DNA of 64,000 nucleotides, taken from contig NZ_CP046907.1 in assembly GCF_014083985.1 (NCBI RefSeq), positions 4,254,501 through 4,318,500 of the forward strand. The letters run 5' to 3'. The position numbers and the translations under genes are program-made. This stretch comes from Streptomyces sp. SCUT-3. Lineage in GTDB: Bacteria > Actinomycetota > Actinomycetes > Streptomycetales > Streptomycetaceae. Shown here in pieces: positions 34,123 through 59,450 of the stretch. The stretch's first letter is position 1, and each line of letters starts with the position of its first letter. The notes under the pieces were generated by a model. That model searched no databases and had not been told where the DNA came from. It worked only from the letters and a program-made list of their open reading frames with translations.

Positions 34123-34476
34123 ACTCCGTGATCCTGGCCCTGTCAACGGTCGCCGAACAGGACATTCCCCGGCACAAGGGCGGCTGTGGGGACGGGAGCG
34201 TGCGGGCTCTGCCCGGACGCCGTACGGCCGTGCGGGCGGTTGCGCGCCCGCGATTCCTCCGCGACGCCCGGCGACGGCGGGCCCCGCCCCCGCCGCCCCC
34301 CGACGCGGGCGACATCGGCAGGACGCCCGGTCGAGGTGCTTTCGCCCGTGAGTGCAACCTTCGTCCGTACGGAAACGTCTGAAGATGTGTCAGTCCGGCA
34401 TGCCATCATCGCCGGAACGGGACGACTCTCCCGCGTCGGCAGGGCGCAGGAGTGACGGCTCGGGCACATACCTTCC

Positions 34477-34497
34477 GACCGCTTGCCGCAAGCGGTC
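34477..34497. promoter_or_regulatory. Perfect 21-bp palindrome resembling the rifamycin-associated element
   Basis: Arms GACCGCTTGC and GCAAGCGGTC flank a single central C, a perfect palindrome 80 bases upstream of the helicase start. The core CTTGC-N-GCAAG is what I recall for the 19-bp rifamycin-associated element that controls rifamycin resistance genes, including helR, in Actinobacteria. The flanks here (ACCG/CGGT) differ from the G-rich consensus I remember. The downstream gene being a HelD/HelR-like protein supports the assignment. The rest of the 34123-34476 interval holds no gene that I can support. Confidence 0.65.
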
Positions 34498-34576
34498 CTT
34501 CGGCAGTTCTTTCACCGGGCACGGTCACCACGCCCGGAGTGGCCTCCTCCGGGACGCCGCGAGGAAGGGGAAGTAC

Positions 34577-37500
34577 GTGGGCAGCACCACGCGCGACGAC
34601 GTCATCGCCATCGAGCAGAAGGCGGTGGACCGCGCCTACGCCTGCTACGAGGCGCAGTTGGCCGAGCTGACCGGTGGCTCCGTCGCCAAAGCCTCCGCCA
34701 CCGGGAAGGACGGCATCGCCAACCGGCGCGAGGCCGAGGAGCAGGCGAGGGCGTACGGCGGGCTCGGCGGGGAGGCGCTGGTCGTCAGCCGTGTCGACAC
34801 CCAGGACGGCCCCGGCGGGGAACGCGAGACCTGGTACGTCGGGCGGCGGCGGGTGAGCGACCCCGGGTCCAGCGAACTCGTGGTCGTGCACTGGGCCAGC
34901 CCGGCCGCCAAGACGTGGATCGAGGCGCTGCCCCAGGACCCGGGCGAGGTGCTCCTGCGGCGGCAGTTGAGGTGCGCGCAGCGCATCGTCGAGGACTACT
35001 TCGACGACATCGCCGTCTCCGTCCCCGGGCTTGTCCCGGACGCGGCGCCCGTTCCCGTCCCCGTCCCGGCCACCGTTCCCGTTCCCGTCCCGGCCACCGT
35101 CCCTGAGCCGCGTCCGGCCGCCGACGACGCGGGGACGGACGCGCAGGAGCCCGGCCAGGAGGCGCCGGACCAGGCGGACTCGGTGGACCCGGCGGACCCC
35201 GCCACCGTGCCGCCGCAGCGCCGGAGGCTGCGTCCGCCCGCCCCCACCCCCGGCGACGTCGTCCGCATGCAGCGCCGCAAGCCGGCCCAGCCCGACGATT
35301 TCCTCCTGCGCGAGCTCCGGCGCTCCCGCAGCGGGCGCATGCGGGACATCGTCGAGACGATCCGCCGCGACCAGATGGCCCTGGTCACCGGCTCGCCCTC
35401 CGACATCCTCGTCGTGCAGGGCGGGCCGGGCACCGGCAAGTCCGCGGTCGGCCTGCACCGCGTGACGTGGCTGGTCAACAACGAGCACTTCAAGGCCCGG
35501 GACATCCTCGTCGTCGGCCCCCACCAGCGGTTCCTCGACTATGTCGGGCAGGTCCTGCCCACCCTCGGCACGCGCGACGTCAACGCCGTGCAGCTGGACC
35601 GCCTGTGGGAGGGCGAGATCCGCGGCACCGACGGCCCGGAGGCGCGGCGGGTGAAGTCCGACGAGCGCATGGCGGCCGTGCTGCACCGGCGCGTCGAGAA
35701 CGAGTGTCGGCCCGAGGCGGTCGACGGCCTGCTCACCGAGGCCTCCTACGAGGGCGACGAGCCCTCGTTCACCGTCACCGCCGGCCGCACGACCCTGCGC
35801 GTGCCGCGGACCGAACTCCTCGCCCTCCTCGACGAGGCCCGCCGGGGCGACGGCGCCTACCGGGAACGCCGCACCCGCTTCCGCAGCATGCTCGTCGACC
35901 GCCTCCTGCGCGAACTCGCCGCCGTCTTCCCCCGCCGCGGTGCCGACGGCACCATCCGCCGCGACCTGGAGCGCAACCGCCGGGTCGAGCGGCTCGTGGA
36001 GCGCCTCTGGCCGTCACTGGGCGCCCGGGAGGCACTGCGCAGCCTCTACGACTCGCCCGACCTCCTGCGCGCCTGCGCCGACGGCATCCTCGACGAGGAC
36101 GAGCAGGCAGCCCTGCACCGCCCCCGCGGCGCCACGGCCGCCGACGACCCCTGGACCCTCGACGACCGCGTCTGCCTCGAAGAGCTCCGGTACCTCGTCG
36201 ACGGGGAGGTCCCGCCGCGCTACGGCCACATCGTCGTCGACGAGGCGCAGGACCTGACGCCCATGCAGGCCCGCTCCCTGCGCCGCCGCTGCGCGGCGAG
36301 CGGCTCCATGACGGTCCTCGGCGACCTCGCCCAGGCCACCGGCCCCCACACCCACACCGCCTGGGACCGCCTCGGCGCGATCCTCTCCGACCACGGCGAC
36401 TGGAGCGTCGCCCAGCTGAACACCAGCTACCGCGTGCCCGCCGAGATCATGGACTTCGTCGCGCCCCTGGCCCGCGCGGTCGCCCCCTCGCTGCCCTACC
36501 CGCAGGCCGTGCGCGCGGCCGGCCCCGACGCCGTCCGGACAGTGGCGACCGAGCCGTGGAAGCTCCTCGACGACACCGCCGCCCAGGTCGCCCGCCTCGT
36601 CGGGAGCAGCGACGGGAACACCCTGCGCTCGGTGGCCGTCGTCGTCCCCGACGACTCCGGCTGGATCGACGAGATCGGCCGCCGGCTGGAGCAGGACGCG
36701 GACGTCACGGACCAGGAGCGCGAGGCGGTGTCCGTGCTGCCCGCGGCCGAGGCCAAGGGAATGGAGTTCGACCACGTCCTCGTCGTCGAACCCGCCACCG
36801 TCGCCGACCGCGGCCCCGCCGGCCTGCGGCAGCTCTACATCGCCCTCACCCGCAGCACCCAGTCCCTGACCGTCCTCCACACCTCCCCGCTCCCCGCCGC
36901 CCTCACCGGCCACGGAGACGGCCCCGACGGCGGCGCGGAGCAGCCCGCGGCGGAGTCTGCGGCGGAGTCTGCGGCGGAGTCTGCGGTGGGCTCCGGGCAG
37001 CCGCAGGACGGCGGCGCGCAGCCGGCCGCGGACGCCGGGCCGGGCGCTGCCCCCGGGCCGGGCACGGCACCGGCCGGAGAGGATTCGGCTGCGACGCGGG
37101 CCGGGACGGCCCCGACCTCGGACGCGGCCCCGACCTCGGACGCGGCCCCGACCTCGGACGCGGCCCTGACCCCGGACGCGGCCCTGACCCCGGACGCGGC
37201 CGTGTCCGGCATCCCGGAGATCGGCACCGACGTCCGGGTCCGGGTGGTCGGCCACACGACCGGCGGCCACTACAAGGTCGAGGCCCTGTCGCCGGCCACG
37301 GACCGCCCGCTGCTGCTGGCCGTGCGCCACGGCTCCGCGCCCCCCGCCGCCGGGGAGGAACTGGACGCGTGGGTGCTCCGCCACGACTCCAGCGTCAGCT
37401 TCGTCACGACCGACCGGCGCGGACGCAGCCCCGTCTCGCCCCGCATGGCGGCCCGCTACGTCGACGCGCTCACCGTTCTCGACGCCCTGGCCGGAGGGGA

Positions 37501-38476
37501 GAACCCCGAGGACGCCCGCGCCCGCCTGTCCGAGCTCAAGGGCATGGCCAACCGCTGCCTGCGCCTGGACCAGCCCGACTGGCTGGACGTCTGGCACCTC
37601 CTCGGATCTCCCGACAGGGCCCGGCTGAACCGGCTGCGGGACCTCACGGTGACCACCGCCCGCGCCCTGGCCTCCGGCACGCCCGACCCCGACCGCATCG
37701 CCGCCGACCTGCGGGCCGGCGGCTGGGCCGACGCCCTGGCCGCCGCCCGCCACGCCCTCGAACAGCGCCTGGCCGCCGCAACCGCCCCGGACACCAAGGC
37801 TGACGGGGCCACCGGGACCACCGGGGCCGACGGTGTCGGCGAGGCCGCCGAGAGCAGCCCTGCGGACGCAGCGCCCGAAACCGCCCCGGACGCCACCGAC
37901 AAGGCACTCCCCGCCGCCGCACCGCAGCAGCCCGAGACGAAGGACACCGACCCCGTGCCCACCACCGCAGCCGCCGTCGACGCCCCGGCCCCGCAGACGG
38001 AACCGAAGCAGACGGAACCGAAGCAGACAGAACCGAAGCAGACGGAACCGAACGCGTCGTTCCTCCGGATGCTTGAGGCATCGGCCGCCGACGACCGGAC
38101 GCACAAGACCCACGAGACGGTGCGCCACCGGCTGATCTCGGACCTGTGGGACGCCGACCGCCAACCGACCAGCACGCCCGTCGTCGACATCTCCTGCACC
38201 ACGGAGGACAGCCGGTTCCTCTACGAGGTCCTCGACGCAGGCCACTCCTCCTACGCCGACCTCCGCGCGGGCGCGGTCCGTCTCCTGGAGATCAACCACA
38301 CTCTGCCTGCGCCCGCCGACCGTCTCCACCTGGTCCTCTCCGAGCCGCCGGCCGAGGACTGGGCGGCCGAGACCGTCCGTGCGGTCTTCGGCGTCCACGT
38401 CCTGTGGCGCACCCCCGAGGGCTGGGCCGGCCAGGACGTGGACACCGCCCTCGGCTCCCGCCCCGGTGGGCACTGA
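34577..38476 (+). CDS. HelD/HelR-like helicase-type ATPase with long C-terminal extension
   Basis: A 1,299-residue superfamily I protein of the HelD class, which recycles RNA polymerase; HelR members dislodge rifamycins. The N-terminal coiled-coil begins IAIEQKAVDRAYACYEAQL. Walker A is VQGGPGTGKSAVGLH, Walker B is HIVVDEAQDLTPMQA, and later motifs are QLNTSYRVPAE, EAKGMEFDHVLVVEP and LRQLYIALTRSTQSL. The helicase core ends near residue 770. It is followed by three repeat linkers, an OB-like segment (GTDVRVRVVGHTTGGHYKVE), a helical domain, and a C-terminal domain I cannot name (SRFLYEVLDAGHSSYADLRA). Usual HelD/HelR are 650-780 residues. The GTG start follows GAGGAAGGGG; upstream in-frame codons are unlike the family. 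Confidence 0.85.
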   Translation: MGSTTRDDVIAIEQKAVDRAYACYEAQLAELTGGSVAKASATGKDGIANRREAEEQARAYGGLGGEALVVSRVDTQDGPGGERETWYVGRRRVSDPGSSELVVVHWASPAAKTWIEALPQDPGEVLLRRQLRCAQRIVEDYFDDIAVSVPGLVPDAAPVPVPVPATVPVPVPATVPEPRPAADDAGTDAQEPGQEAPDQADSVDPADPATVPPQRRRLRPPAPTPGDVVRMQRRKPAQPDDFLLRELRRSRSGRMRDIVETIRRDQMALVTGSPSDILVVQGGPGTGKSAVGLHRVTWLVNNEHFKARDILVVGPHQRFLDYVGQVLPTLGTRDVNAVQLDRLWEGEIRGTDGPEARRVKSDERMAAVLHRRVENECRPEAVDGLLTEASYEGDEPSFTVTAGRTTLRVPRTELLALLDEARRGDGAYRERRTRFRSMLVDRLLRELAAVFPRRGADGTIRRDLERNRRVERLVERLWPSLGAREALRSLYDSPDLLRACADGILDEDEQAALHRPRGATAADDPWTLDDRVCLEELRYLVDGEVPPRYGHIVVDEAQDLTPMQARSLRRRCAASGSMTVLGDLAQATGPHTHTAWDRLGAILSDHGDWSVAQLNTSYRVPAEIMDFVAPLARAVAPSLPYPQAVRAAGPDAVRTVATEPWKLLDDTAAQVARLVGSSDGNTLRSVAVVVPDDSGWIDEIGRRLEQDADVTDQEREAVSVLPAAEAKGMEFDHVLVVEPATVADRGPAGLRQLYIALTRSTQSLTVLHTSPLPAALTGHGDGPDGGAEQPAAESAAESAAESAVGSGQPQDGGAQPAADAGPGAAPGPGTAPAGEDSAATRAGTAPTSDAAPTSDAAPTSDAALTPDAALTPDAAVSGIPEIGTDVRVRVVGHTTGGHYKVEALSPATDRPLLLAVRHGSAPPAAGEELDAWVLRHDSSVSFVTTDRRGRSPVSPRMAARYVDALTVLDALAGGENPEDARARLSELKGMANRCLRLDQPDWLDVWHLLGSPDRARLNRLRDLTVTTARALASGTPDPDRIAADLRAGGWADALAAARHALEQRLAAATAPDTKADGATGTTGADGVGEAAESSPADAAPETAPDATDKALPAAAPQQPETKDTDPVPTTAAAVDAPAPQTEPKQTEPKQTEPKQTEPNASFLRMLEASAADDRTHKTHETVRHRLISDLWDADRQPTSTPVVDISCTTEDSRFLYEVLDAGHSSYADLRAGAVRLLEINHTLPAPADRLHLVLSEPPAEDWAAETVRAVFGVHVLWRTPEGWAGQDVDTALGSRPGGH
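36948..36985. repeat. In-frame 12-bp repeat, three copies (AESA)
   Basis: Three copies of GCGGCGGAGTCT encode AESAAESAAESA in the first linker after the helicase core. Copies are identical, so the array is young or actively homogenised. Confidence 0.9.
37109..37203. repeat. In-frame 18-bp repeat, five copies (TSDAAP / TPDAAL)
   Basis: Five 18-bp units encode (TSDAAP)2, TSDAAL, TPDAAL and TPDAAV. Neighbouring units differ at one or two positions. The array forms a Pro/Ala/Asp linker between the helicase core and the OB-like domain. Confidence 0.9.
37994..38050. repeat. In-frame 15-bp repeat, four copies (QTEPK)
   Basis: Four copies of CAGACGGAACCGAAG, one with a G-to-A change, encode QTEPK three times and QTEPN. 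They separate the helical domain from the unidentified C-terminal domain of the helicase-like protein. Confidence 0.9.
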
Positions 38477-48747: not shown

Positions 48748-50259
48748 ATGCCCTCCCAGAGCTTTCTCGGGTCGTTCGCCGAGTCGGCGGAGGAGCACCC
48801 CGACAGGTGCGCCCTCGCCCTGGACGACCGTCAGGTCACCTACCGGGAACTGCAGGACGCCGCCTCCTGGTTCCGTACCGGGACGGCACTGCCCGGTCTG
48901 CCCGCGGGGCGGCCGGTGTGCGTTCCCGCGGTCAAGACCCCGGAGACCCTCGCGCTGCTCCTCGCCGCGCTGGCGGACCGCCGGCAGATCCTGCTGCCCT
49001 CGCCCGAACTGGGAGAGGAGGTGCTGCTGCGCCTGTGCCGGCAGGCGTCCTGCTCCGCCGTCCTCCTCGCCGGGCGTGACGCGGACGGCCGCCCCTCGCT
49101 GACCGTCCGAGCTGTGGAGGCGGTGCCGGAGGAGGCCGAGGGGTTCCGGCTGCCCGGCCCGGACGAGGCGCAGCTGATGCTGACGACCTCCGGGTCGACG
49201 GGCACCCCGAAGATCGTCCCGATCCTCGCCGAGGCGGCCGACCGCTTCATGGAGTGGGGTGCCGGGCAGTTCGGGCTGCGGCCGGGGAAGAGGGTACTGA
49301 GCTACGCGCCGCTGAACTTCGACCTCTCCCTGCTCGACGTGTGGGCGGCGCTGCGGGCGGGGGCCGAGGTGGTCCTGGTGGACCAGGAGCGGGCCACCGA
49401 CGCCGCGTACCTGGCAGGTCTCCTGGAGAGGTACCCGGTCCACCTGGTGCAGGCGGTGCCGCTGTTCTACCGGCTCCTGCTGGACGGCGGACCCTCCGGC
49501 GCGCGCCGGTTCCCCGACGTCGGGCACGTGGTCTTCACCGGCGACGCGATGCCGTACGACCTGCTGCGCCGGCTCCCCGACGCGTTCCCCGGGGCGTGTC
49601 TGCACAACGTCTTCGGCTGCACCGAGACCAACGACAGCTTCCGCCACGAGGTGGACCCGGCCGCGGTCGCGCCGGGGGAGGTGCTTCCCGTCGGCCGGCC
49701 CCTGCCCGGGGTGGAGGCGGTGGTCACCGGCTCCGACGGCGCGGTCCTGGAAGGGCCGTGCACCGGGGAGCTGCTGGTGTCCACGCCGTTCCAGACCTCC
49801 GGCTACCTGGAGACCCGCCGCAACGCGGACGTCTTCGTCCGGCTGCCGGGCGACGCCTCGGGGCGCGTGTACTACCGCACCGGCGACATCGTGACGCGCC
49901 GGGCCGACGGCCTGTACCTGCTGGAGGGCCGCAGCGACTTCCACGTCAAGGTCCGCGGGGTGCGCGTCAACCTGCAGGAGATCGAGCAGGTTCTCCGCGA
50001 CCACCCGGAGGTGGGCGACGCCGCCGTGGTGGCCCTTCCCGACGAGGTGGCCGGTGTCCGGCTGCACGCCCAGGTGCAGCGCCTTCCCGGCAGCGGCCTG
50101 CGCTCCCTGGCCCTGCGCACCCACTGCTCCCGTCACCTGCCCCGGCCCGCGGTCCCCGCCTCCCTCGTGGTCGCGGACGATCCGCTGCCGCGCATGCCGA
50201 CGGGCAAGCCCGACCGAAACCTCATCAGGAAGAACCGGATGGAGAAGGAGCCCGCATGA
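48748..50259 (+). CDS. Stand-alone NRPS-type adenylation enzyme
   Basis: A 503-residue AMP-forming ligase expected to activate an amino acid and load it on the adjacent carrier protein. Core motifs: A3 LMLTTSGSTGTPK, A5 NVFGCTETNDS, A7 YYRTGDIVTRR, A8 FHVKVRGVRVNLQEIEQVL and A10 MPTGKPDRNLI. ATG 48748 begins the family-like SQSFLGSFAESAEEHPDRCA. The stop overlaps the carrier start (ATGA). If this is a showdomycin-type locus the substrate would be L-glutamine. I did not extract the specificity code, so L-proline, the substrate of similar stand-alone enzymes in pyrrole pathways, is not excluded by sequence. Confidence 0.88.
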   Translation: MPSQSFLGSFAESAEEHPDRCALALDDRQVTYRELQDAASWFRTGTALPGLPAGRPVCVPAVKTPETLALLLAALADRRQILLPSPELGEEVLLRLCRQASCSAVLLAGRDADGRPSLTVRAVEAVPEEAEGFRLPGPDEAQLMLTTSGSTGTPKIVPILAEAADRFMEWGAGQFGLRPGKRVLSYAPLNFDLSLLDVWAALRAGAEVVLVDQERATDAAYLAGLLERYPVHLVQAVPLFYRLLLDGGPSGARRFPDVGHVVFTGDAMPYDLLRRLPDAFPGACLHNVFGCTETNDSFRHEVDPAAVAPGEVLPVGRPLPGVEAVVTGSDGAVLEGPCTGELLVSTPFQTSGYLETRRNADVFVRLPGDASGRVYYRTGDIVTRRADGLYLLEGRSDFHVKVRGVRVNLQEIEQVLRDHPEVGDAAVVALPDEVAGVRLHAQVQRLPGSGLRSLALRTHCSRHLPRPAVPASLVVADDPLPRMPTGKPDRNLIRKNRMEKEPA

Positions 50260-50510
50260 GCGGCGACATCAAGGACTTCATCATCACGCAGTTCCTGCCC
50301 GACATCGACCCGGCCGAACTGTCCGACGACTACGACCTGGTGGAGAACGGAGTGGTCGACAGCCTCGGGCTCCTGCGCGTGGTCGCCTGGGTGTCCGAGA
50401 CCCACGGGCTGTCGCTGGACGACATCCCGATCGCCCCGGACAACTTCCGCAGCGTCGAGGCCATACGGCGCTTCGTGGCCGAGGCCCGGGTCTCCGCCGG
50501 CCTCCACTGA
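50256..50510 (+). CDS. Acyl/peptidyl carrier protein
   Basis: An 84-residue stand-alone carrier protein. The 4'-phosphopantetheine attachment Ser is in LVENGVVDSLGLLRVVAWV. It is translationally coupled to the adenylation enzyme, which fixes its partner. It should carry the aminoacyl group while the downstream cyclase and dehydrogenase act on it, as carrier-bound prolyl is handled in pyrrole-2-carboxylate pathways. Confidence 0.93.
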   Translation: MSGDIKDFIITQFLPDIDPAELSDDYDLVENGVVDSLGLLRVVAWVSETHGLSLDDIPIAPDNFRSVEAIRRFVAEARVSAGLH

Positions 50511-50633
50511 GCCGCTCCCGCACCATCGGGTCCTTCCGGACCGCAGTTCCTCTCCCTCGCCGTACGCGGCGACCGCACATCACGCTGTCGCCGTCACACA
50601 GAAGGCCACAGCCGACAAGAAAAGGGGAAAGTC

Positions 50634-51008
50634 GTGATCATTCGCAGCCTCGAGGACGTCAAGGACATCGAGTGGGGCAACGGCCTCAGCCGGCGTCTGC
50701 TGACCGAGGAGGACGGCATGGGTTACACCCTCACCGACACGGTCGTCTACAAGGGGACCTCCTCCGCGCTCCAGTACGAGCGGCACCTGGAGGCCTGCTA
50801 CTGCATCGAGGGCAGCGGCGCGGTCCGCACCGTCGACGGCGAGGTCATCCCGATCAAGCAGGGCACCATGTACGCCCTCGACAAGCACGACGCCCACCAC
50901 CTGATCGCCTCCGACCACGAGGACTTCCGCCTGGTGTGCGTCTTCTCCCCGGCGTTGCGCGGCGACGAGGTCCACACCCTCAGCGAGGACGGCTACTCGC
51001 GTTACTGA
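50634..51008 (+). CDS. Ectoine-synthase-like cupin cyclase
   Basis: A 124-residue cupin clearly related to EctC: the N-terminus MIIRSLEDVKDIEWGNGLSR, then LEACYCIEGSGAVRTVDGEV, IPIKQGTMYALDKHDAHHL and LVCVFSPALRGDEVH follow EctC almost motif by motif. No ectA, ectB or ectD is present. EctC closes a cyclic amidine, and as a side reaction makes 5-amino-3,4-dihydro-2H-pyrrole-2-carboxylate from glutamine. In this operon it probably cyclises carrier-bound glutaminyl to that five-membered amidine. GTG 50634 follows AAAGGGGAAAG. The 123-base gap before it has no hairpin that I can see. Confidence 0.88.
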   Translation: MIIRSLEDVKDIEWGNGLSRRLLTEEDGMGYTLTDTVVYKGTSSALQYERHLEACYCIEGSGAVRTVDGEVIPIKQGTMYALDKHDAHHLIASDHEDFRLVCVFSPALRGDEVHTLSEDGYSRY

Positions 51009-51099
51009 CACAGGGCCTCACATCCCATCGCCGTGTCCGGCCGGGGCGCGCCCGCGCGGACCCCTGCCGGACACGGCCACGAGGAGAGCGGGACACACC

Positions 51100-52238
51100 G
51101 TGATCAACTGGACGACCGAGCAGCTGGCTCACCGTGAGCGGCTGCGCCCGTACGCCGAGGAACTCGGCGCCGACCACGCCGAGTGGGACCACCGCGAGGA
51201 GTTCCCTCGGGAGAAGTGGGAGGTCCTGAGGAAGACCGACCTGCTGCGCCTGCCCTTCGAGCGGGAGTGGGGAGGGCTGGGCGAGGACCTGACGACCACC
51301 ATGTGCGTCCTGGAGGAGCTGGGGCGCAGCTGCCGCGACGCGGGCCTGAACTTCTCCGCCTCCACGCAGATCGTCAGCGTCGGCGTGCCGCTGCAGAGGT
51401 TCGGCTCGCGGGAGCTCAAGGAGCGCTACCTGCCGGGCATCGTGGACGGTTCCCTGATCTGCGCGCACGCGATCACCGAGCCGGACCACGGGTCGGACGT
51501 GCTGAACATCACCACCACCGCCGTCCGCGACGGCGACCACTACGTCATCGACGGCGGCAAGAAGTTCATCACCAACGCACCCGTGGCCGACGTCTTCCTG
51601 CTGTACGTGCGCACCGGCGGGGCGGGCAACCCCTGGGACTGAGCGTGTTCCTGGTCGAGCGCGACACCCCCGGACTGACGGTAGGGCCGGCCCTGGGGAA
51701 GATGGGGCTGCGCACCTCGCCGCTGAGCGAGCTGACCTTCGAGGGGATGCGGGTGCCCGCCGCACACCTGGTCGGCCCTGCGGGAGCCGGGCTGATGGTC
51801 CTCGACCACGTGATGAAGCGCGAGATCCTCTTCTCCTTCAGCATCACGCTGGGGGAGATGGAGCACCGCCTGGCCCGCTGCGTCGAGTACGCCCGCACGC
51901 GGCGGCAGTTCGGTCGGAGCATCGGGGAGTTCCAGTCCGTCTCCCACCGGATCGCCGACATGCGGATCGCGGTGGACACCTCCCGCAAGTGGCTGCACGA
52001 CACGGCGGAGAAGGTTCTCGCCGGCAAGGACACCACCTTGGACGTCGCCGCCACCAAGACGGTCGTCAGCGAGGCGAACTCGGCCACCGCCCTGGCGGCC
52101 CTGCAGATCTTCGGCGGCAACGGCTACCTCACCGGGACCGGCGTGGAGCAGGACGTGCGCAACGCGCTGGCGGGGACCGTCTACTCGGGCACGTCCGAGA
52201 TCCAGCGCAACCGCATCGCCGCCGTGCTCGGCCTCTAG
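51100..52238 (+). pseudogene. Acyl-CoA dehydrogenase-like enzyme, split by a frameshift
   Basis: Two frames together encode a normal flavin acyl-CoA dehydrogenase of about 379 residues. The first (51100-51642) ends YVRTGGAGNPWD-stop, and the second continues LGLSVFLVERDTPGLTVGPA to 52238. Inserting one base in the C-run at 51630-51633 gives GGAGNPLGLSVFLVERDTPG, as in homologues. The middle HAITEPDHGSDVLNITTTAV and the C-terminal GGNGYLTGTGVEQDVRNALA and GTSEIQRNRIAAVLGL are intact. Such enzymes aromatise carrier-bound prolyl to pyrrolyl; here it would oxidise the cyclic amidine to an aminopyrrole. The break may be a sequencing error, a real mutation or slippage (CCC re-pairing one base back). 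GTG 51100 follows GAGGAGAG. Confidence 0.85.
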
Positions 52239-52307: not shown

Positions 52308-52994
52308 ATGCCCGCGACCACCGGCTCACCGACGGACCACGAGCACCTGCTGCGGTCCACCGAGTTCCTCGACCACGACTCCCCCGAGGTGCGCGCCTTC
52401 GTCGACCGCGTGGTCACCGACCACGACGCGCCCGCCCGGGAGAAGGCGGTGCGGCTCTACTACGCCGTCCGCGACGACGTCTTCTACGAGGTGTACGGGG
52501 CGGACCTCTCGCGCGCGGGACTGCGGGCGAGCTCCGTGGCCCGCGGGGGGAAGGGCTTCTGCCTGCACAAGTCCGTCCTGTACGCGGCCGCGGTGCGGGC
52601 GGTCGGCGTCCCCAGCCGCCTGGTCTTCGGCGACGTGCGCAACCACCTGGCCTCGGACCGGCTCAAGGAGCACATCGGGGGTGACGTCTTCTTCCACGCC
52701 CTGACCAGCGTCCGTCTGGAGGGGCGGTGGGTGAGGGCGACGCCGGTGTTCAACAAGACGCTGTGCCGGCTGTACGGCATGAGTCCGCTGGAGTTCGACG
52801 GCACCGCGGACAGCCTCTACCACCCCTTCGACGACCGGGGGCAGCAGCACATGGAGTTCCTGGCGATGCACGGAGAGTTCGACGATCTGCCCCACGACTT
52901 CGTCATGGAGCGGATGCGCTCGCAGCACCCGAACTTCCTGAAGGGGACCGGCACCGTGGGCGGCGGTTCCCTGGCCGACGAGGCCGGCCGGTGA
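52308..52994 (+). CDS. Transglutaminase-like cysteine hydrolase
   Basis: A 228-residue transglutaminase-core protein. The candidate triad is Cys in GGKGFCLHKSVLYAAAVRA, His in GDVFFHALTSVRLEGRWV, and Asp or Asn in the following strand (ATPVFNKTL). ATG 52308 has GGAGGAC at ideal spacing. It is the last gene of the SARP-controlled operon. No other thioesterase is visible, so it may hydrolyse the aminopyrrole-carboxyl thioester from the carrier. The fold also covers peptidases and amidases, so this role is inference. Confidence 0.8.
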   Translation: MPATTGSPTDHEHLLRSTEFLDHDSPEVRAFVDRVVTDHDAPAREKAVRLYYAVRDDVFYEVYGADLSRAGLRASSVARGGKGFCLHKSVLYAAAVRAVGVPSRLVFGDVRNHLASDRLKEHIGGDVFFHALTSVRLEGRWVRATPVFNKTLCRLYGMSPLEFDGTADSLYHPFDDRGQQHMEFLAMHGEFDDLPHDFVMERMRSQHPNFLKGTGTVGGGSLADEAGR

Positions 52995-53062: not shown

Positions 53063-53545
53063 TCAGGAGAAGGCCCTGCGCAGCGCCGCCACGGCGGTCC
53101 CCAGCTCCGGCGAGGACCGCGCGGCCTCGTCCAGGGCGGCGGCGAGGGTCTGCTCGTAGGTGGAGCGCGCCCGGGAGTGGAGGGCGCGGCCCGCGTCGGT
53201 GAGAACGGTGTAGACGCCGCGCTTGTCGTTCATGCACACGTCCCGGTAGGTCCAGCCGGCCTCGTTCATCCGGGCGACCAGGCGGGTGACGGAGCTCTGG
53301 TTCAACGCGATCCGGTCGGCCAGCTCCTGCATGCGCAGTTCGCTGTCGTCCGCCGCGGACAGGTGGCCGAGGGCGCGGTACTCCGACAGCCCCATGCCGT
53401 GGTGCCGTTGCAGAGCGGTGGTGAGCCGGTGTTCCACACGACTGTGCAGGGCGGCCACCTGGCGCCACATCAGGTCGTCGACGGCGGCTTCGGCGGTGTC
53501 GGGAGCGGTGGTGTCGGGAACGGCGCTGTCGGGACGGGACTGCAC
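53063..53545 (-). CDS. MarR-family transcriptional regulator
   Basis: A 160-residue MarR protein: LMWRQVAALHSRVEHRLTTA, GLSEYRALGHLSAADD, the winged HTH LADRIALNQSSVTRLVARMN and VYTVLTDAGRALHSRAR. GTG 53545 follows GAGGAGG. Upstream in-frame starts add a region that is really the divergent promoter. It faces the deaminase/C-glycosynthase operon and is likely to repress it and itself, perhaps sensing a pathway intermediate. Confidence 0.88.
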   Translation of the reverse strand: MQSRPDSAVPDTTAPDTAEAAVDDLMWRQVAALHSRVEHRLTTALQRHHGMGLSEYRALGHLSAADDSELRMQELADRIALNQSSVTRLVARMNEAGWTYRDVCMNDKRGVYTVLTDAGRALHSRARSTYEQTLAAALDEAARSSPELGTAVAALRRAFS

Positions 53546-53592
53546 GGAAACCTCCTCGGAGCGAGCTCTTCCGGTCATCCGGACCCCCATGC

Positions 53593-53620
53593 TTGACACG
53601 AGAGTACATGCACATACATT
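53593..53620 (+). promoter_or_regulatory. Candidate sigma-HrdB promoter of the C-glycosynthase operon
   Basis: TTGACA (53593-53598) and TACATT (53615-53620) are separated by 16 bases in an AT-rich pocket between the divergent MarR and deaminase genes. The hexamers agree with the vegetative consensus at six and four to five positions. Transcription would start near 53627. Confidence 0.65.
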
Positions 53621-53635
53621 CTTCTGGGAAATAAC

Positions 53636-53651
53636 TTGCAAGCGCATTCAA
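53636..53651. promoter_or_regulatory. Candidate MarR operator
   Basis: TTGCAAGCGCATTCAA is a 16-bp imperfect palindrome (six of eight pairs match, TTG/CAA ends). It sits about 10 bases downstream of the predicted transcription start and between the MarR gene and its presumed target. TTGnnnnnnCAA-like palindromes are typical of MarR sites. Confidence 0.5.
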
Positions 53652-53754: not shown

Positions 53755-54228
53755 ATGCCTGCGACGTACGCGGACCTGTACGAGTACGCCCGCCTGACGG
53801 TCGACCTGTCGGTCCGGCACGTCGCGGAGGGCGGGGTCCCGTTCGCGGCCCTGGTCGTGCGCGGGGATCGGGTCCTGGGCACCGGCGTCGACCGGGTGCA
53901 GGAGGACCGCGACCCCACCGCGCACGCCGGGATGGTCGCCCTGCGCCGCGCTGCCGCCGAGCACGGCCCCGCCGCCCTGGCCGGATCGCTGCTCGTGGCC
54001 TCCGGCGAACCCTGCCCGCTGTGCTACGCGGCCGCGATCTGGTGCCACGTCGACCAGGTCGTCTTCGCCGCCGACCGGCACACCGCCGCCAGTGCGGGCT
54101 TCGACTACACGGACTCGTACGCACTCCTCACCGCCGACCCGGCGGACTGGCCCATGAGGGCGACGCACCTGCCCGTGCCGGGAAGCCGGCGCCCCTTCGA
54201 CGACTGGCGGGCGCGCACCCTCTCCTGA
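53755..54228 (+). CDS. Cytidine-deaminase-superfamily protein lacking the catalytic Glu
   Basis: A 157-residue protein of the guanine/tRNA-adenosine deaminase type. The zinc ligands are present as TAHAGMVALRRAA (His) and EPCPLCYAAAIW (two Cys). The proton-shuttling Glu of the H-A-E motif is Gly here. The rest (GGVPFAALVVRGDRVLGTG, VVFAADRHTAASAGFDY) is family-like. ATG 53755 follows GGAGG. A classical hydrolytic deamination is doubtful. It could still act on an imine such as the maleimide imine proposed in showdomycin formation, or serve as a binding protein. The 146-base gap to the next gene is GC-rich with no clear element. Confidence 0.82.
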   Translation: MPATYADLYEYARLTVDLSVRHVAEGGVPFAALVVRGDRVLGTGVDRVQEDRDPTAHAGMVALRRAAAEHGPAALAGSLLVASGEPCPLCYAAAIWCHVDQVVFAADRHTAASAGFDYTDSYALLTADPADWPMRATHLPVPGSRRPFDDWRARTLS

Positions 54229-54374: not shown

Positions 54375-55334
54375 ATGTCCCTGGCCGCCGGCGCCGGCAC
54401 CGACCTGCTGGACATCGCGGAGGAGGTGGCCGAGGCCGTCCACGAGGGCAGGCCCGTGGTCGCCCTGGAGTCGTCCAACATTCCCCAGGGGCCCGCCTAT
54501 CCGGCCAACCTGGAGATGGCCGTGGCCATCGACAAGGCCGTCCGGGACGCCGGAGCCGTGCCCGCCCGGATCGGCCTCCTGGACGGCCGGATCCTCGTGG
54601 GCATGACCGACGACCACCTGGAGCGGTTCGCCACCACCCCCGACGCACCCAAGGTCAGTACCCGCGACATGGGCGTCGTCCTGGCTGCCGGAGGGCCGGG
54701 CGGCACCACCGTCTCGGCCTCGCTCATGGGGGCCGAGCTGGCCGGCCTGAGCGTCTTCGCGGTGGCCGGCATCGGCGGCGTGCACCGCGACGCCCCGCAG
54801 TCCTTCGACATCTCCGCGGACCTGGCCCAGTTCACCCGCAGCCGCCTCGCCGTGGTCTGCGCCGGGGCCAAGTCGATGCTCCACCCCGCGCTCACCCTGG
54901 AATGGCTGGAGACCGCGGGCGTCCCGGTCATCGGCTACCGGTGCGACGACTTCCCGGCCTACCTCAGCGTCTCCAGCGGGGTGCGCAACCCGCACCGCCT
55001 CGACGACCTCGGGGAAATCGCCGCGGCCGCCGTCACGCACTGGGCCGCCGGCGGGTCCGGCTCGGTCCTGGTCACCCACCCCATCGCGGAGGCCGACGGC
55101 ATCCCCTCCTCCGACATCGAGCAGGCACTGGCCGACGCCACCCTCCTGGCGGAGCGGGACGGGGTGAGCGGTCCGGCGATCACCCCCTACCTGCTCAAGG
55201 CGATCGCCGCGGCGACCGAGGGGCGCACCACCGCCGCCAACCGTGCGGTGCTGCTGTCCACGGCCTCCCTGGCCGGCCGGTTCGCCGTGGAGATGACCGC
55301 GGCGCTCGGCTCCACCGGGGGGCGTGCCCGATGA
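54375..55334 (+). CDS. PsuG-family C-glycosynthase (pseudouridine-5'-phosphate glycosidase-like)
   Basis: A 319-residue PsuG-family protein, related to IndA/MinB, AlnA and SdmA, which make C-C bonds between ribose 5-phosphate and an aromatic acceptor. The Schiff-base lysine is Lys166 in VVCAGAKSMLHPALTLEWLE, matching E. coli PsuG numbering. The N-terminal ALESSNIPQGPAYPANLEMA replaces the usual HGMPYP with QGPAYP, and near the C-terminus VLLSTASLAGRF has Ser-Thr where E. coli PsuG has Asn-Asn (from memory). These acceptor-side changes suit a non-uracil base. ATG 54375 follows AAGGAGG. It is coupled to the HAD gene. The proposed acceptor is 2-amino-1H-pyrrole-5-carboxylate. Confidence 0.9.
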   Translation: MSLAAGAGTDLLDIAEEVAEAVHEGRPVVALESSNIPQGPAYPANLEMAVAIDKAVRDAGAVPARIGLLDGRILVGMTDDHLERFATTPDAPKVSTRDMGVVLAAGGPGGTTVSASLMGAELAGLSVFAVAGIGGVHRDAPQSFDISADLAQFTRSRLAVVCAGAKSMLHPALTLEWLETAGVPVIGYRCDDFPAYLSVSSGVRNPHRLDDLGEIAAAAVTHWAAGGSGSVLVTHPIAEADGIPSSDIEQALADATLLAERDGVSGPAITPYLLKAIAAATEGRTTAANRAVLLSTASLAGRFAVEMTAALGSTGGRAR

Positions 55335-56104
55335 GCCCCGCGGTCCTGTTCGACATGGACGGCACCCTGGTGGACACCCCGGGCGCCATCGTGACCACCC
55401 TGTGCACGGTCCTCGAGGAACTCGGCACCCCCCGGCCCGATGCCCTGGAGGTGCGGGCGACCGTCGGGCGCCCCCTGGTCCCGTCCTTCGCCTCCCTGCT
55501 GCGACTCGACGAGGGCGATCCGACGGTCTCACGAGCCGCCGAGCGCTTCCGGACCCTCTTCCGCGACACCGTGGTGCCCGACGCCCCCCGGCTCGTCCTG
55601 CCCGGCGTGGTGACGCTCCTGCAGGAACTGCGAAGCGACGGCCACCCGCTCGCGGTCGTCACCAGCAAGGTCCGCGCGGGGGCCGAGGAAATGCTCGAGT
55701 CGGCAGGGCTGGCGTCCTGTTTCGACGCCGTGGTGTGCCACGGCATGGCCGAACGGGGCAAGCCGCACCCCGACCTCGCCCTGCTGGCGGCGGACCTGTT
55801 GCGCCGCCCCGCCGCCGAGTGCGTCGTGGTCGGTGACGCAGTGGATGACATGCGCATGGCTCGGTCCGCCGGCATGACCGCGATCGGGGTCTCCTACGGA
55901 GTCGCCGACACCCGGGCCCTGTTCGAGGCCGGGGCCCACCGGGTGGAGCACTCCGCCCCGGCGGTCGGACGGGCCCTGTCCGAACTCACCCTGTCCGGAT
56001 CCACCCTGTCCGGGCCCGCACCCGACCGGGCACCCGCCTCCCGGGACGGCGAGGAGCCCCCGTACCCCGCAACCCCCAGCACCGAAGTGGTGATCAGCAC
56101 ATGA
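55331..56104 (+). CDS. HAD-family phosphatase (C-nucleoside dephosphorylation)
   Basis: A 257-residue PGP-like HAD hydrolase: motif I VLFDMDGTLVDTPGAI, motif II VVTSKV, motif III GKPHPDLA and motif IV ECVVVGDAVDDMRMARSAG. The ATG overlaps the C-glycosynthase stop, and the stop overlaps the MFS start. PsuG-like and HAD genes occur as pairs in alnumycin (AlnA/AlnB) and in the indA/indB loci, where the HAD enzyme removes the 5'-phosphate after C-ribosylation. The last 45 residues are a Ser/Pro-rich tail absent from typical HAD proteins. Confidence 0.9.
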   Translation: MSPAVLFDMDGTLVDTPGAIVTTLCTVLEELGTPRPDALEVRATVGRPLVPSFASLLRLDEGDPTVSRAAERFRTLFRDTVVPDAPRLVLPGVVTLLQELRSDGHPLAVVTSKVRAGAEEMLESAGLASCFDAVVCHGMAERGKPHPDLALLAADLLRRPAAECVVVGDAVDDMRMARSAGMTAIGVSYGVADTRALFEAGAHRVEHSAPAVGRALSELTLSGSTLSGPAPDRAPASRDGEEPPYPATPSTEVVIST

Positions 56105-57534
56105 CCGTATCCGACCGGACGGCCCAGGCGGCCCCGAAGCCGTCGTCGCGGGCCGCCGCCGGACTGGCGACCCTGTCCGCCGCCCAGTTCCTCATCGCCC
56201 TGGACTTCTCCGTCATCTTCGTCGCGCTGCCCAGCATGGGCGCCGACCTGGCCCTCTCCGAGAGCGCCGTGCAGTGGGTCGTCAGCGCCTACGCGGTGTT
56301 CTTCGCCGGATTCCTCGTGCTCGGCGGGCGGGCCGCGGACCGCATCGGTGCACGCACCCTGTTCGTCGCGGCCCTGCTGCTGTTCGGGGTGGCCTCCTTG
56401 GCCGGGGGCATCGCCCAGGGAGCGGCCGTGCTGCTGGTCGCCCGCGCGGCCCAGGGCGTGGCGGCCGCCACCCTGCAGCCCTCGATCCTGGCCCTGGTGA
56501 ACACCACTTTCGAGCCCGGTCCGGCCCGTACCCGGGCCCTGGCCGTCTGGGGGACCGTGGGCGCCAGCGGCCTGGCCGCCGGCGTGGTGCTCGGCGGCCT
56601 GCTCACGACGGTGTCCTGGCGCTGGACCTTCCTGGTCAACCTCCCCTTCGCCCTGGTGTGCGTGCTGGCAGCCCCCAAGGTCCTGCCGGCCCCCGTGCGC
56701 CTCGCGCGCTCAGCGGCCCCGCTCAACGTCGTCAGCGCGGTGCTGTGCACGGCGACGGTGCTCGTCTCCACCCTCGGCCTGACCCGGGCCTCGGAGGCGG
56801 GCTGGGGCGACCGGACGGCCCTGGCGTGCTTCGCCGCGACCGCCGTGCTGCTCGCCGCCTTCCTCCTGCGCGAGCGTTCCAGCGCGCAGCCGCTGGTCGC
56901 CCCGGTACTGCGCCGCACCCGCACCCTACTGGCCGGATGCGGTGCCGCCGCCCTGTACATGGCCAGCGTCGCCGGAGTGGAGTTCTACCTGGTCACGCTG
57001 GCGCTGCAGGACCAGCGCGGCTTCACGCCCCTGCAGGCGGGAATCGCGTTCCTCCCGCTGGCGGTGTGCATCACCCTCGGCAACACCGTCGCCGGGCGCC
57101 TGCTCACCCCCTGGGGCGTCAGGCGCACCCTCTCCGCCGCCTTCCTCCTCGGCGCCGCGGGGCTGGTCCTGCTGGCGCTGTCCGTCGGCCTGGAGGGGTA
57201 CGCCGCCGCGATGCTCCCCGGCCTTCTGGTCAGCGGCATCGGCCACGGAATGATCTACACCAGCATGTTCGTGGGAGGCACCCGGGACGTTCCCGACTCC
57301 CACCAGGGCACTGCGGGCGCACTGATGACCACCAGTCAGTACGCGGGCGGAGCGCTGGGGGTGGCCGTCCTGGTGCTGGTGCTCGGAACCGCCCCGGACA
57401 CGGGGAGCTTCGCGGCCGGTTTCACCATGGCCGGTGGGATCGCCCTGGTCGGTGCGGTGCTGGCCTGGACAAGTTTCGCCGGCGGGGCGCGACAGAGCGC
57501 GACGGCCGGCACGACCGCGGAGGTGAAGGCATGA
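56101..57534 (+). CDS. MFS drug exporter, DHA2 (14-helix) type
   Basis: A 477-residue major facilitator. Motif A-like GRAADRIGARTLFVAA and the DHA2 N-terminal LIALDFSVIFVALPSMGADL are present, with about fourteen hydrophobic segments. The position between the HAD and racemase-like genes with four-base overlaps on both sides makes it the likely exporter of, and self-protection against, the cluster product. Release of the active nucleoside may be tied to dephosphorylation by the preceding gene. Confidence 0.92.
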   Translation: MTVSDRTAQAAPKPSSRAAAGLATLSAAQFLIALDFSVIFVALPSMGADLALSESAVQWVVSAYAVFFAGFLVLGGRAADRIGARTLFVAALLLFGVASLAGGIAQGAAVLLVARAAQGVAAATLQPSILALVNTTFEPGPARTRALAVWGTVGASGLAAGVVLGGLLTTVSWRWTFLVNLPFALVCVLAAPKVLPAPVRLARSAAPLNVVSAVLCTATVLVSTLGLTRASEAGWGDRTALACFAATAVLLAAFLLRERSSAQPLVAPVLRRTRTLLAGCGAAALYMASVAGVEFYLVTLALQDQRGFTPLQAGIAFLPLAVCITLGNTVAGRLLTPWGVRRTLSAAFLLGAAGLVLLALSVGLEGYAAAMLPGLLVSGIGHGMIYTSMFVGGTRDVPDSHQGTAGALMTTSQYAGGALGVAVLVLVLGTAPDTGSFAAGFTMAGGIALVGAVLAWTSFAGGARQSATAGTTAEVKA

Positions 57535-58394
57535 CCGGGACGTCCCCCGCCACCGCCCGGCTGGGCGCGCTGGTGATCCACAACGATCCCGTTCCGGAGA
57601 TCGAACTGGGCCTGGGCCGGGTGCCGGGAGTGTCCGTGCACGCCGCGCGGTTCGAGTGCCCCCGCCCCGTCGACGGCGAGTACACCGGCAGCGCCGCCCG
57701 CGCGCTCGCCGAGGCGCCCGACGTCGTCCGCGGCCTGGACCAGCTGGGCAGGCTCGGCGCGGACTGCATCGCTCTGTGCTTCGGGTCCAGCAGCTTCTTC
57801 GGGGGCCAGGACTTCGACCGGGAGTTCACCGAGGTCGCCGAGGGGTTCTCCCACGGCGTGCCGGTGTTCACCGCGGCCACGGCCATGACGGCCGCCATGC
57901 GCGCCGGTGGCGTGCGCAGGCCGCTGGCGGTGATGCCGCCGTGGTTCACCGAGCCCACGTTCCGTGCGACGGAGGAGTACCTGGCCGGGGCGGGGATGCG
58001 GCCGTGCGGGCTGCTGCAGTTCGACCTCGGACCCCGGTGGGAGGGGGTGGCCCGGTACAACGCCTTCGACCTCGGCGCCCGCTGGGAGGTGCACCCGCAG
58101 GAGGTCTGCGACCAGGTGCTGCGGGGCCTGCCCGGGGACGCCGACGGCATCCTGCTGCCCGGCAGCGGCTTCCGCTCCTGGGAGGCGATCGTCTCCCTGG
58201 AGCGGGAGACCGGGCTCCCGGTGGTCACCTCCAACCAGGCGGTCCTGTGGTACGGGCTGGCCCTGGCCGGCGGCCCCGCCGGCCCGCCCGGGGGCGGTCG
58301 GCTGATGGACCGCCCCGGGCCGCCGCCCGCCGGCCGTTCGGCGTCCGAGGGGGCGGACGCGGAAGGGGAGGGTGCCGCCGTCCCCGCGCGCTGA
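57531..58394 (+). CDS. Asp/Glu racemase-superfamily enzyme (maleate isomerase/AMDase-like)
   Basis: A 287-residue protein of the superfamily of Asp/Glu racemases, maleate isomerases and arylmalonate decarboxylases. The first catalytic cysteine region is CIALCFGSSSFFGG. The second, expected as a Cys-containing loop after the ILL strand, reads GILLPGSGFRSWEAI with no Cys. Racemases and isomerases need both cysteines, while arylmalonate decarboxylase has only one, so a decarboxylase or altered reaction is more likely. Its context suggests action on the pyrrole carboxylate or a maleimide-type product. The ATG overlaps the MFS stop, and the C-terminal 40 residues are Pro/Gly-rich. Confidence 0.78.
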   Translation: MTGTSPATARLGALVIHNDPVPEIELGLGRVPGVSVHAARFECPRPVDGEYTGSAARALAEAPDVVRGLDQLGRLGADCIALCFGSSSFFGGQDFDREFTEVAEGFSHGVPVFTAATAMTAAMRAGGVRRPLAVMPPWFTEPTFRATEEYLAGAGMRPCGLLQFDLGPRWEGVARYNAFDLGARWEVHPQEVCDQVLRGLPGDADGILLPGSGFRSWEAIVSLERETGLPVVTSNQAVLWYGLALAGGPAGPPGGGRLMDRPGPPPAGRSASEGADAEGEGAAVPAR

Positions 58395-58598: not shown

Positions 58599-59450
58599 AT
58601 GGACGTTGCCGTGCTCGGACCACTGACCGTCAGATACTCGGGACTCTCCGTGGTGCCCACCGCGGCCAAGCCCCGTCGACTCCTCGGCCTGCTGGCGGTC
58701 CGCGCGGGTCAGCCGGTTCCGGTGGAGACCATCTGTGCGGAGTTATGGGGAGGCGACCGTCCGCGCACGGCCCATCTCACGCTCCAGGGGTACGTCTCCT
58801 CCCTGCGTGCCCGCGTGCGGGCCGCGGCCGAGCAGGGGAGCGGCGGGGAGGAACCGGTCGACCCCAAGGAGATCATCGTCGGAACCAGCTGCGGGTACGT
58901 CCTCAGGGCAGGGGAGAGCAGCAGCGACGTGCGGGAGTTCGACCGGCTGGCCGAGGCCGGGCACGAGGCCCAGAAGTCCGGGAACCACCGCCTCGCGGCC
59001 CAGCGTTTCGGCCGGGCACTGGCCCTGTGGCGCGGCCCGGCGCTGGCCGACGTGCGCAGCGGCCCCGAACTGCACCGTGAGGCGCTCCGCCTGGAGGAGT
59101 CGCGGCTGAGCGTGCTCGGCTGCCGGGTCGAGGCCGACCTGAACATGGGGCGCCATCACGCGCTGGTGGGCGAGATCGCAGCGCTCTGCGCGCAGTACCC
59201 GCTGCACGAGGGCCTGCACCGGCAGCACATGATCACCCTCTGCCGGGTGGGGCGGCGCCTTGATGCGCTACGCGCGTATAACCGGCTGCGCGCTGCCCTC
59301 AAGGCCGCCCAGGGCATCGAGCCCTCGATCGAGCTCAAACGCCTCCACCACCAGGTCCTGCACTCCCGCATCGCCCCCTTCGCCGGAGCGGTCGAACCGA
59401 TGCCCGCACTGTCCGCCACGTCCGGGGGCGGCGAGGCCACCGTGGCCTGA
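58599..59450 (+). CDS. SARP-family pathway activator with TTA codon
   Basis: A 283-residue SARP. The N-terminal OmpR-like DNA-binding domain is AVLGPLTVRYSGLSVVPTAA with KPRRLLGLLAVRAGQPV, and the BTAD region includes ALALWRGPALADV and LHEGLHRQHMITLCRVGRRL. ATG 58599 follows GAAGGGG at about 10 bases. Codon 49 (58743-58745) is TTA, so translation needs the bldA tRNA. The heptamer array upstream of the adenylation operon is its probable target. A better ribosome site (AAGGAGGGG) sits before an out-of-frame ATG at 58541, which may interfere with initiation here. Confidence 0.92.
   Translation: MDVAVLGPLTVRYSGLSVVPTAAKPRRLLGLLAVRAGQPVPVETICAELWGGDRPRTAHLTLQGYVSSLRARVRAAAEQGSGGEEPVDPKEIIVGTSCGYVLRAGESSSDVREFDRLAEAGHEAQKSGNHRLAAQRFGRALALWRGPALADVRSGPELHREALRLEESRLSVLGCRVEADLNMGRHHALVGEIAALCAQYPLHEGLHRQHMITLCRVGRRLDALRAYNRLRAALKAAQGIEPSIELKRLHHQVLHSRIAPFAGAVEPMPALSATSGGGEATVA

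Follow-up and report, generated by a model that had tools for sequence, protein, structure and literature searches.

The gene at positions 50634 to 51008 (+) of a 64,000 nucleotide stretch of Streptomyces sp. SCUT-3 DNA (hereafter the window) is probably the cyclase of a showdomycin-type pathway, in which free glutamine would be turned into the cyclic amidine 2-amino-1-pyrroline-5-carboxylate (ADPC) before loading onto a carrier, oxidation, release, C-glycosylation and dephosphorylation. On a wider scale we propose, with a confidence that falls a little short of even, that the solitary-EctC clade of this protein consists of glutamine cyclases that open a general aminopyrrole route, and that a constant gene cassette feeds both C-nucleosides and a tryptophan-like route to a pyrrolo-pyrrole isostere. 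The direct basis is enzyme families, gene order, a conserved metal site, pocket residues and distribution; every reaction step in this strain and the order of cyclization before loading are what we infer.

The cyclase reading frame starts with GTG, is open over 124 amino acids and is coding-like, with a GC3 of 0.97 against a GC2 of 0.40. Its product matched the Ectoine_synth family (PF06339) at an E-value of 4.7e-37 and 127.5 bits (curated cut-off 27) and the NCBIfam ectoine synthase model PRK13290 at 138.2 bits, above the cut-off of 128. In the PDB it matched the Paenibacillus lautus EctC (5onn, E 1.2e-29), and a match of about 1e-29 to a solved EctC makes the predicted fold clear; judged by sequence, the protein is a real EctC-family cupin and a relative of ectoine synthase. 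A chance reading frame was ruled out by the family scores and the codon-position bias, and a reverse-strand frame (50580-51011, -) was disfavoured as the plus-strand frame has 97% GC3 and many homologues. The carrier gene ends 123 bp upstream, and a profile scan found no ectA, ectB or ectD family members among the scanned neighbouring genes of the cyclase, which bears out the sequence-only reading of an EctC-like gene directly after a carrier and without EctA, EctB or EctD. A bona fide ectABC set lies elsewhere in the genome, with EctC at C1:4921478 (186 bits) and EctA and EctB beside it, and so the second EctC is not needed for ectoine. The two EctC-type proteins share only 42% identity.

Residues were compared using the iron ligands and residue roles described for EctC (PMC6344544). 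The iron ligands Glu57, Tyr84 and His92 correspond to E53, Y80 and H88 of the window cyclase and are present in 122 of 122 clade members. More broadly, the equivalents of P. lautus EctC R25, Y52, E57, Y84, H92 and F106 were kept in all 122 and T40 in 121, so that the window cyclase resembles bona fide EctC in cupin family, metal ligands and most substrate-site residues. It differs, however, in two positions of the active site. The Trp21 column holds Gly in every one of the 122 clade members and Trp in five of five canonical EctC proteins, with a Trp three positions earlier in 121 of the 122 clade cyclases, and the Asn38 column holds Thr, Cys or Ala throughout the clade. Because bona fide EctC differs at these positions, the changes point to another substrate. 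Some solitary EctC proteins have been reported to carry a shifted Trp (PMC6344544). The clade C-terminus, unlike that of canonical EctC, ends in Ser-x-Tyr in nearly all members (Ser in 120/122, Tyr in 116/122).

The reaction that we propose has a precedent. The sequence-only reading held that free EctC can turn glutamine into a cyclic amidine, and this is established for the Halomonas enzyme, which makes ADPC from free glutamine with very low efficiency and an equilibrium on the glutamine side (PMC5924519). What is a weak side reaction in the Halomonas ectoine synthase is presumably the main job of the window cyclase, in which the alpha-amine of free L-glutamine would attack the side-chain amide with loss of water to give ADPC.

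Ren et al. reportedly described in 2021 a showdomycin pathway with an NRPS-made 2-amino-pyrrole-5-carboxylate that is C-glycosylated by SdmA. In the reviewed proposal, SdmE cyclizes L-glutamine to 2-amino-1-pyrroline-5-carboxylate, the ring is activated by SdmC, loaded on SdmD, oxidized and hydrolysed, and finally SdmA joins it to ribose and SdmB removes the phosphate (PMC8724604). By its gene families, and likened to the sdm cluster of Streptomyces showdoensis through the published description of its parts, the window cluster is of showdomycin type: an adenylation (A) enzyme, carrier, EctC, dehydrogenase, IndA-type C-glycosidase and HAD phosphatase all lie within about 7.5 kb, and the A enzyme, carrier, glutamine cyclase, YeiN/IndA-type C-glycosynthase and HAD phosphatase are common to both clusters, as is the proposed intermediate. 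As the neighbourhood is that of showdomycin, the chemistry suggested for the window cyclase is not new. The window differs from sdm in having MarR and deaminase-fold genes between the cassette and the C-glycosidase, and in a frame-shifted dehydrogenase.

The stand-alone A enzyme (48748-50259, +; PF00501 at 1.3e-45 and PF13193), the counterpart of SdmC, would activate the proline-like ADPC ring and load it on the stand-alone peptidyl carrier protein (50256-50510, +), the SdmD counterpart. The carrier has 84 amino acids and a DSL phosphopantetheine motif (VVDSLGL), with NCBIfam carrier matches at 1.4e-11; its gene overlaps the A gene by ATGA, and relatives are placed likewise in their cassettes. 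After the cyclase gene, which would encode the SdmE counterpart, comes an acyl-CoA-dehydrogenase-type enzyme in two parts. The N-terminal part (51100-51642, +; PF02771 at 8.7e-23) has prodigiosin PigA and prolyl-PCP dehydrogenase as its best NCBIfam matches, and the C-terminal part (51636-52238, +; PF00441 at 2.1e-32), in another frame, has the prolyl-ACP dehydrogenase 4irn as its best PDB match (6.6e-41). This dehydrogenase would oxidize the loaded ring to a carrier-bound aminopyrrole, as prolyl-carrier dehydrogenases do from proline to pyrrole. The transglutaminase-fold protein (52308-52994, +; PF01841 at 5.8e-15) adjoins the dehydrogenase gene in more than 60 cassettes and probably frees the carrier-bound aminopyrrole acid; a PDB sequence search returned no solved relative of it, so the role of releasing hydrolase is a guess from position.

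A MarR-type regulator (53063-53647, -) matched NCBIfam HpaR (MarR family) at 6e-8, below the cut-off of that model, and relatives with 46-57 percent identity adjoin other cassettes. It is followed by a cytidine-deaminase-fold protein (53755-54228, +; PF00383 at 7.9e-16), for which deamination of an amino or imino group is possible. The IndA/YeiN-type C-glycosidase (54375-55334, +; PF04227 at 1.1e-95), counterpart of SdmA, would form the C-C bond between the aminopyrrole acid and ribose 5-phosphate, and the HAD phosphatase (55331-56104, +; PF13419 at 7.8e-33, NCBIfam phosphoglycolate-phosphatase-like), counterpart of SdmB, would then remove the phosphate. The set continues with an MFS exporter (56101-57534, +; PF07690 at 5.5e-49), a protein of the arylmalonate-decarboxylase/maleate-isomerase superfamily (57531-58394, +; PF17645 at 2.8e-16) with 54-64 percent identity to its relatives in the other showdomycin-type loci, and a SARP-type regulator (58599-59450, +; PF03704 at 1.1e-40) that is probably the cluster activator. 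Upstream of the cluster and outside it, positions 34352-38476 encode a 1374-residue protein with UvrD/REP-type helicase domains.

The pocket segment of the A enzyme had PltF, an L-proline--carrier ligase, as its best PDB match and another proline ligase in third place. Aligned to the PltF pocket (D-L-L-Y-L-A-L-V-C), the window reads D-L-L-Q-V-T-V-D-S as part of its code DLLQVTVDSK; DLL is kept, and Q278, T301, D330 and S331 replace Y, A, V and C. These four non-conservative changes to polar residues would suit a proline ring bearing an amidine, although they could equally bind the open side chain of glutamine. Proline-to-pyrrole carrier pathways of the PltF and RedW/PigA type likewise use a stand-alone A enzyme with a DLL pocket, a stand-alone carrier and a flavin dehydrogenase. 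The window adds the cyclase and a more polar A pocket, and its substrate is therefore probably an amidine-bearing ring and not proline. The pocket code was compared across 126 A domains, taken as that of the window plus the best A domain per relative's locus and not de-duplicated, and D-[LV]-[LF]-Q-x-[TS]-x-D-S-K was found in 119 of them. The seven A domains without it were two truncated genes and five unrelated A domains (25-30 percent identity). We know of no glutamine A-domain code that DLLQxTxDSK resembles.

Across 395 Streptomycetaceae genomes, roughly 60 cyclase matches scored between 110 and 276 bits, the next match scored 93 and canonical EctC scored about 80 or less. The neighbourhoods of the Streptomycetaceae matches and of 80 named relatives gave a locus sample of 126 unique proteins, 120 of which were not scored as canonical. 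An A-carrier-cyclase-dehydrogenase cassette surrounds 105 of these 120 unique relatives, a fraction that holds for the clade and not for all solitary EctC because relatives were sampled by their similarity to the window protein. In 98 of the 120 the A gene lies upstream of the cyclase and the dehydrogenase 1.0-1.4 kb downstream, and seven more have the A gene, the dehydrogenase and an IndA-type glycosidase. Like other solitary (orphan) EctC proteins, the window cyclase is an EctC without ectAB; it differs, together with most of its close relatives, in sitting in this defined cassette. Clade members without the cassette occur in Corynebacterium, Brevibacterium, Arthrobacter and Anabaena, and also in Mesorhizobium and Rhizobium gallicum.

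Among the 120 unique relatives, a C-glycosidase accompanies the cyclase in only seven in addition to the window, and these seven loci carry the same showdomycin-type gene set (for example in Streptomyces geranii and S. lincolnensis L4). C-glycosidase identity was 72-76 percent in showdomycin-type loci L056, L094, L102, L111 and L164. On a tree built from 124 columns, with many forks unresolved, well-supported branches force a minimum of four changes in the showdomycin-type context (8 rows), suggesting that the C-glycosidase module joined the aminopyrrole cassette more than once or that cassettes were exchanged. Two showdomycin-type loci (L059 and L060) are rearranged, with carrier, EctC, IndA, HAD, MFS and decarboxylase genes together and the A, dehydrogenase and transglutaminase-fold genes 5-7 kb off.

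Other neighbourhoods were also observed. A second cassette type without C-glycosidase (L074-L087, L093, L095-L101 and similar) has genes for a MarR regulator, A enzyme, carrier, EctC, dehydrogenase, transglutaminase-fold protein and a member of the arylmalonate-decarboxylase superfamily, to which L074 adds a deaminase, a DsbA-like protein and an SMR exporter. At L063, L066 and L069 the EctC-clade gene is followed, directly adjoining in L066, by a gene for a large adenylation protein with another pocket code, DFYHxTMRVK; L066 adds a second acyl-CoA-dehydrogenase-type protein and an MFS gene. Possibly the cyclic amidine is used at these three loci without being oxidized. In Mesorhizobium and Rhizobium gallicum (L168 and L173) the clade EctC gene lies directly before that of a large polyketide synthase, which in Mesorhizobium is an A-KS protein starting with an adenylation domain and in Rhizobium gallicum is of type I, and here the cyclic amidine may serve as a starter unit.

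A second context besides the showdomycin type was a cassette with a second trpD/F/C/A set instead of the C-glycosidase, which was seen at about 57 of the 120 loci (e.g. L037, L092, L053 and L176). Its gene order is A-carrier-trpD-trpA-cyclase-dehydrogenase(-transglutaminase)-trpF/trpC, sometimes with trpB. About half of these loci have a ketosynthase, and genes for an aminotransferase-fold enzyme and a MaoC dehydratase are frequent among them. We noticed no gene for anthranilate synthase in the roughly 57 trp-type loci, and the window itself contains no trp genes. The order is also seen in the original annotation of a Streptomyces xanthii plasmid, and an Aliiroseovarius plasmid carries the cyclase, ketosynthases, dehydrogenase, A enzyme, carrier and trpD. 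Nine trp-type genomes had a housekeeping TrpA at 251-265 bits and a divergent TrpA beside the cyclase at 118-151 bits, and three genomes without a trp-type cassette, that of the window included, had a single TrpA each. The TrpA- and TrpC-like proteins of these clusters are clearly related to enzymes of solved structure. In the route that we propose for these loci, aminopyrrole would replace anthranilate and pass through TrpD, TrpF, TrpC, TrpA and sometimes TrpB to a pyrrolo-pyrrole isostere of indole or tryptophan. The geometry of aminopyrrole is unlike that of anthranilate because its carboxylate is not adjacent to the amine. The literature searched held no published description of a cluster combining EctC, adenylation enzyme and dehydrogenase or of one combining aminopyrrole and tryptophan synthase genes; the sole related remark notes a trpF near a database hit for 'showdomycin' in Streptosporangium (PMC13055916).

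The order of the first two steps can be read in another way. The A enzyme could load open L-glutamine and the cyclase could act on the glutaminyl-thioester, before the dehydrogenase works on the same carrier. The sequence-only reading had taken this course, with an ectoine synthase-like enzyme repurposed to cyclize carrier-bound glutamine. The repurposing holds up, and from the showdomycin neighbourhood the enzyme most likely makes the amidine that precedes the aminopyrrole, but tethering is not supported over the published order, which starts from free glutamine (PMC8724604), and the A pocket is nearest to prolyl-carrier ligases. The carrier gene lies directly upstream of the cyclase gene, and it stays beside the cyclase in the two rearranged loci where the A and dehydrogenase genes have moved away; yet in more than 50 cassettes trpD and trpA lie between carrier and cyclase, which are 2.2 kb apart there, and this makes the adjacency ordinary operon order. 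With trpD and trpA intervening in about half of the relatives, we rejected the adjacency as weak evidence for a tethered substrate. The active site gives signals in both directions. None of the 122 clade members keeps Asn38, through which EctC contacts the free carboxylate, so that a thioester substrate would be tolerated, but the water-mediated carboxylate contact Arg25 is invariant in the clade and favours a free acid. A point for tethering is that the dehydrogenase needs a carrier-bound substrate under either order; a point against it is that some clade members have no carrier cassette at all. On balance we consider the tethered order the less likely of the two and favour cyclization of free glutamine followed by loading.

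It is very improbable that the cyclase was displaced from an ect operon and works as an ordinary ectoine synthase on N-gamma-acetyl-diaminobutyrate, even though it passes the NCBIfam ectoine synthase cut-off and Halomonas can produce ectoine with a solitary EctC from Pseudomonas syringae (PMC5924519). The genome already holds an ectABC set whose EctC is only distantly similar, the cyclase lacks Trp21 and Asn38/His38, and most unique relatives sit in the A-carrier-dehydrogenase cassette, and on gene context and active-site differences this explanation was rejected. A different question is whether the showdomycin-type pathway still operates here. A frameshift near 51,640 divides the dehydrogenase gene (51100-52238), whose first half stops at 51640-51642; of the 121 loci of relatives with both halves, all keep them in a single frame and none is frame-shifted. 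Barring a sequencing error at this point, the strain may no longer have a working pathway. A decaying showdomycin-type cluster, with the cyclase intact and the pathway stopping at the broken dehydrogenase, would be compatible with either order of steps; we regard it as doubtful, since the other cluster genes look intact with strong codon-position bias and a single-contig assembly can hold a small indel error in GC-rich sequence. A real frameshift would be expected to halt the pathway of this strain at the unoxidized ring on the carrier.

In the literature, what solitary EctC proteins do is regarded as unresolved (PMC5924519, PMC6344544). The cassette offers a concrete answer for a large and mainly actinobacterial group of them, namely that these proteins would supply a glutamine-derived cyclic amidine for aminopyrrole. 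Because the adenylation code hardly varies, it can serve as an easy marker for mining genomes and points to about a hundred clusters, the majority of which are neither showdomycin clusters nor assigned in the literature searched. With the chemistry of the window cluster already proposed for showdomycin in the open literature, except for a tethered substrate, it is the wider cassette, and above all its trp-type half, that is worth following up, as a heterocycle not yet described could come from the trp-like subset.
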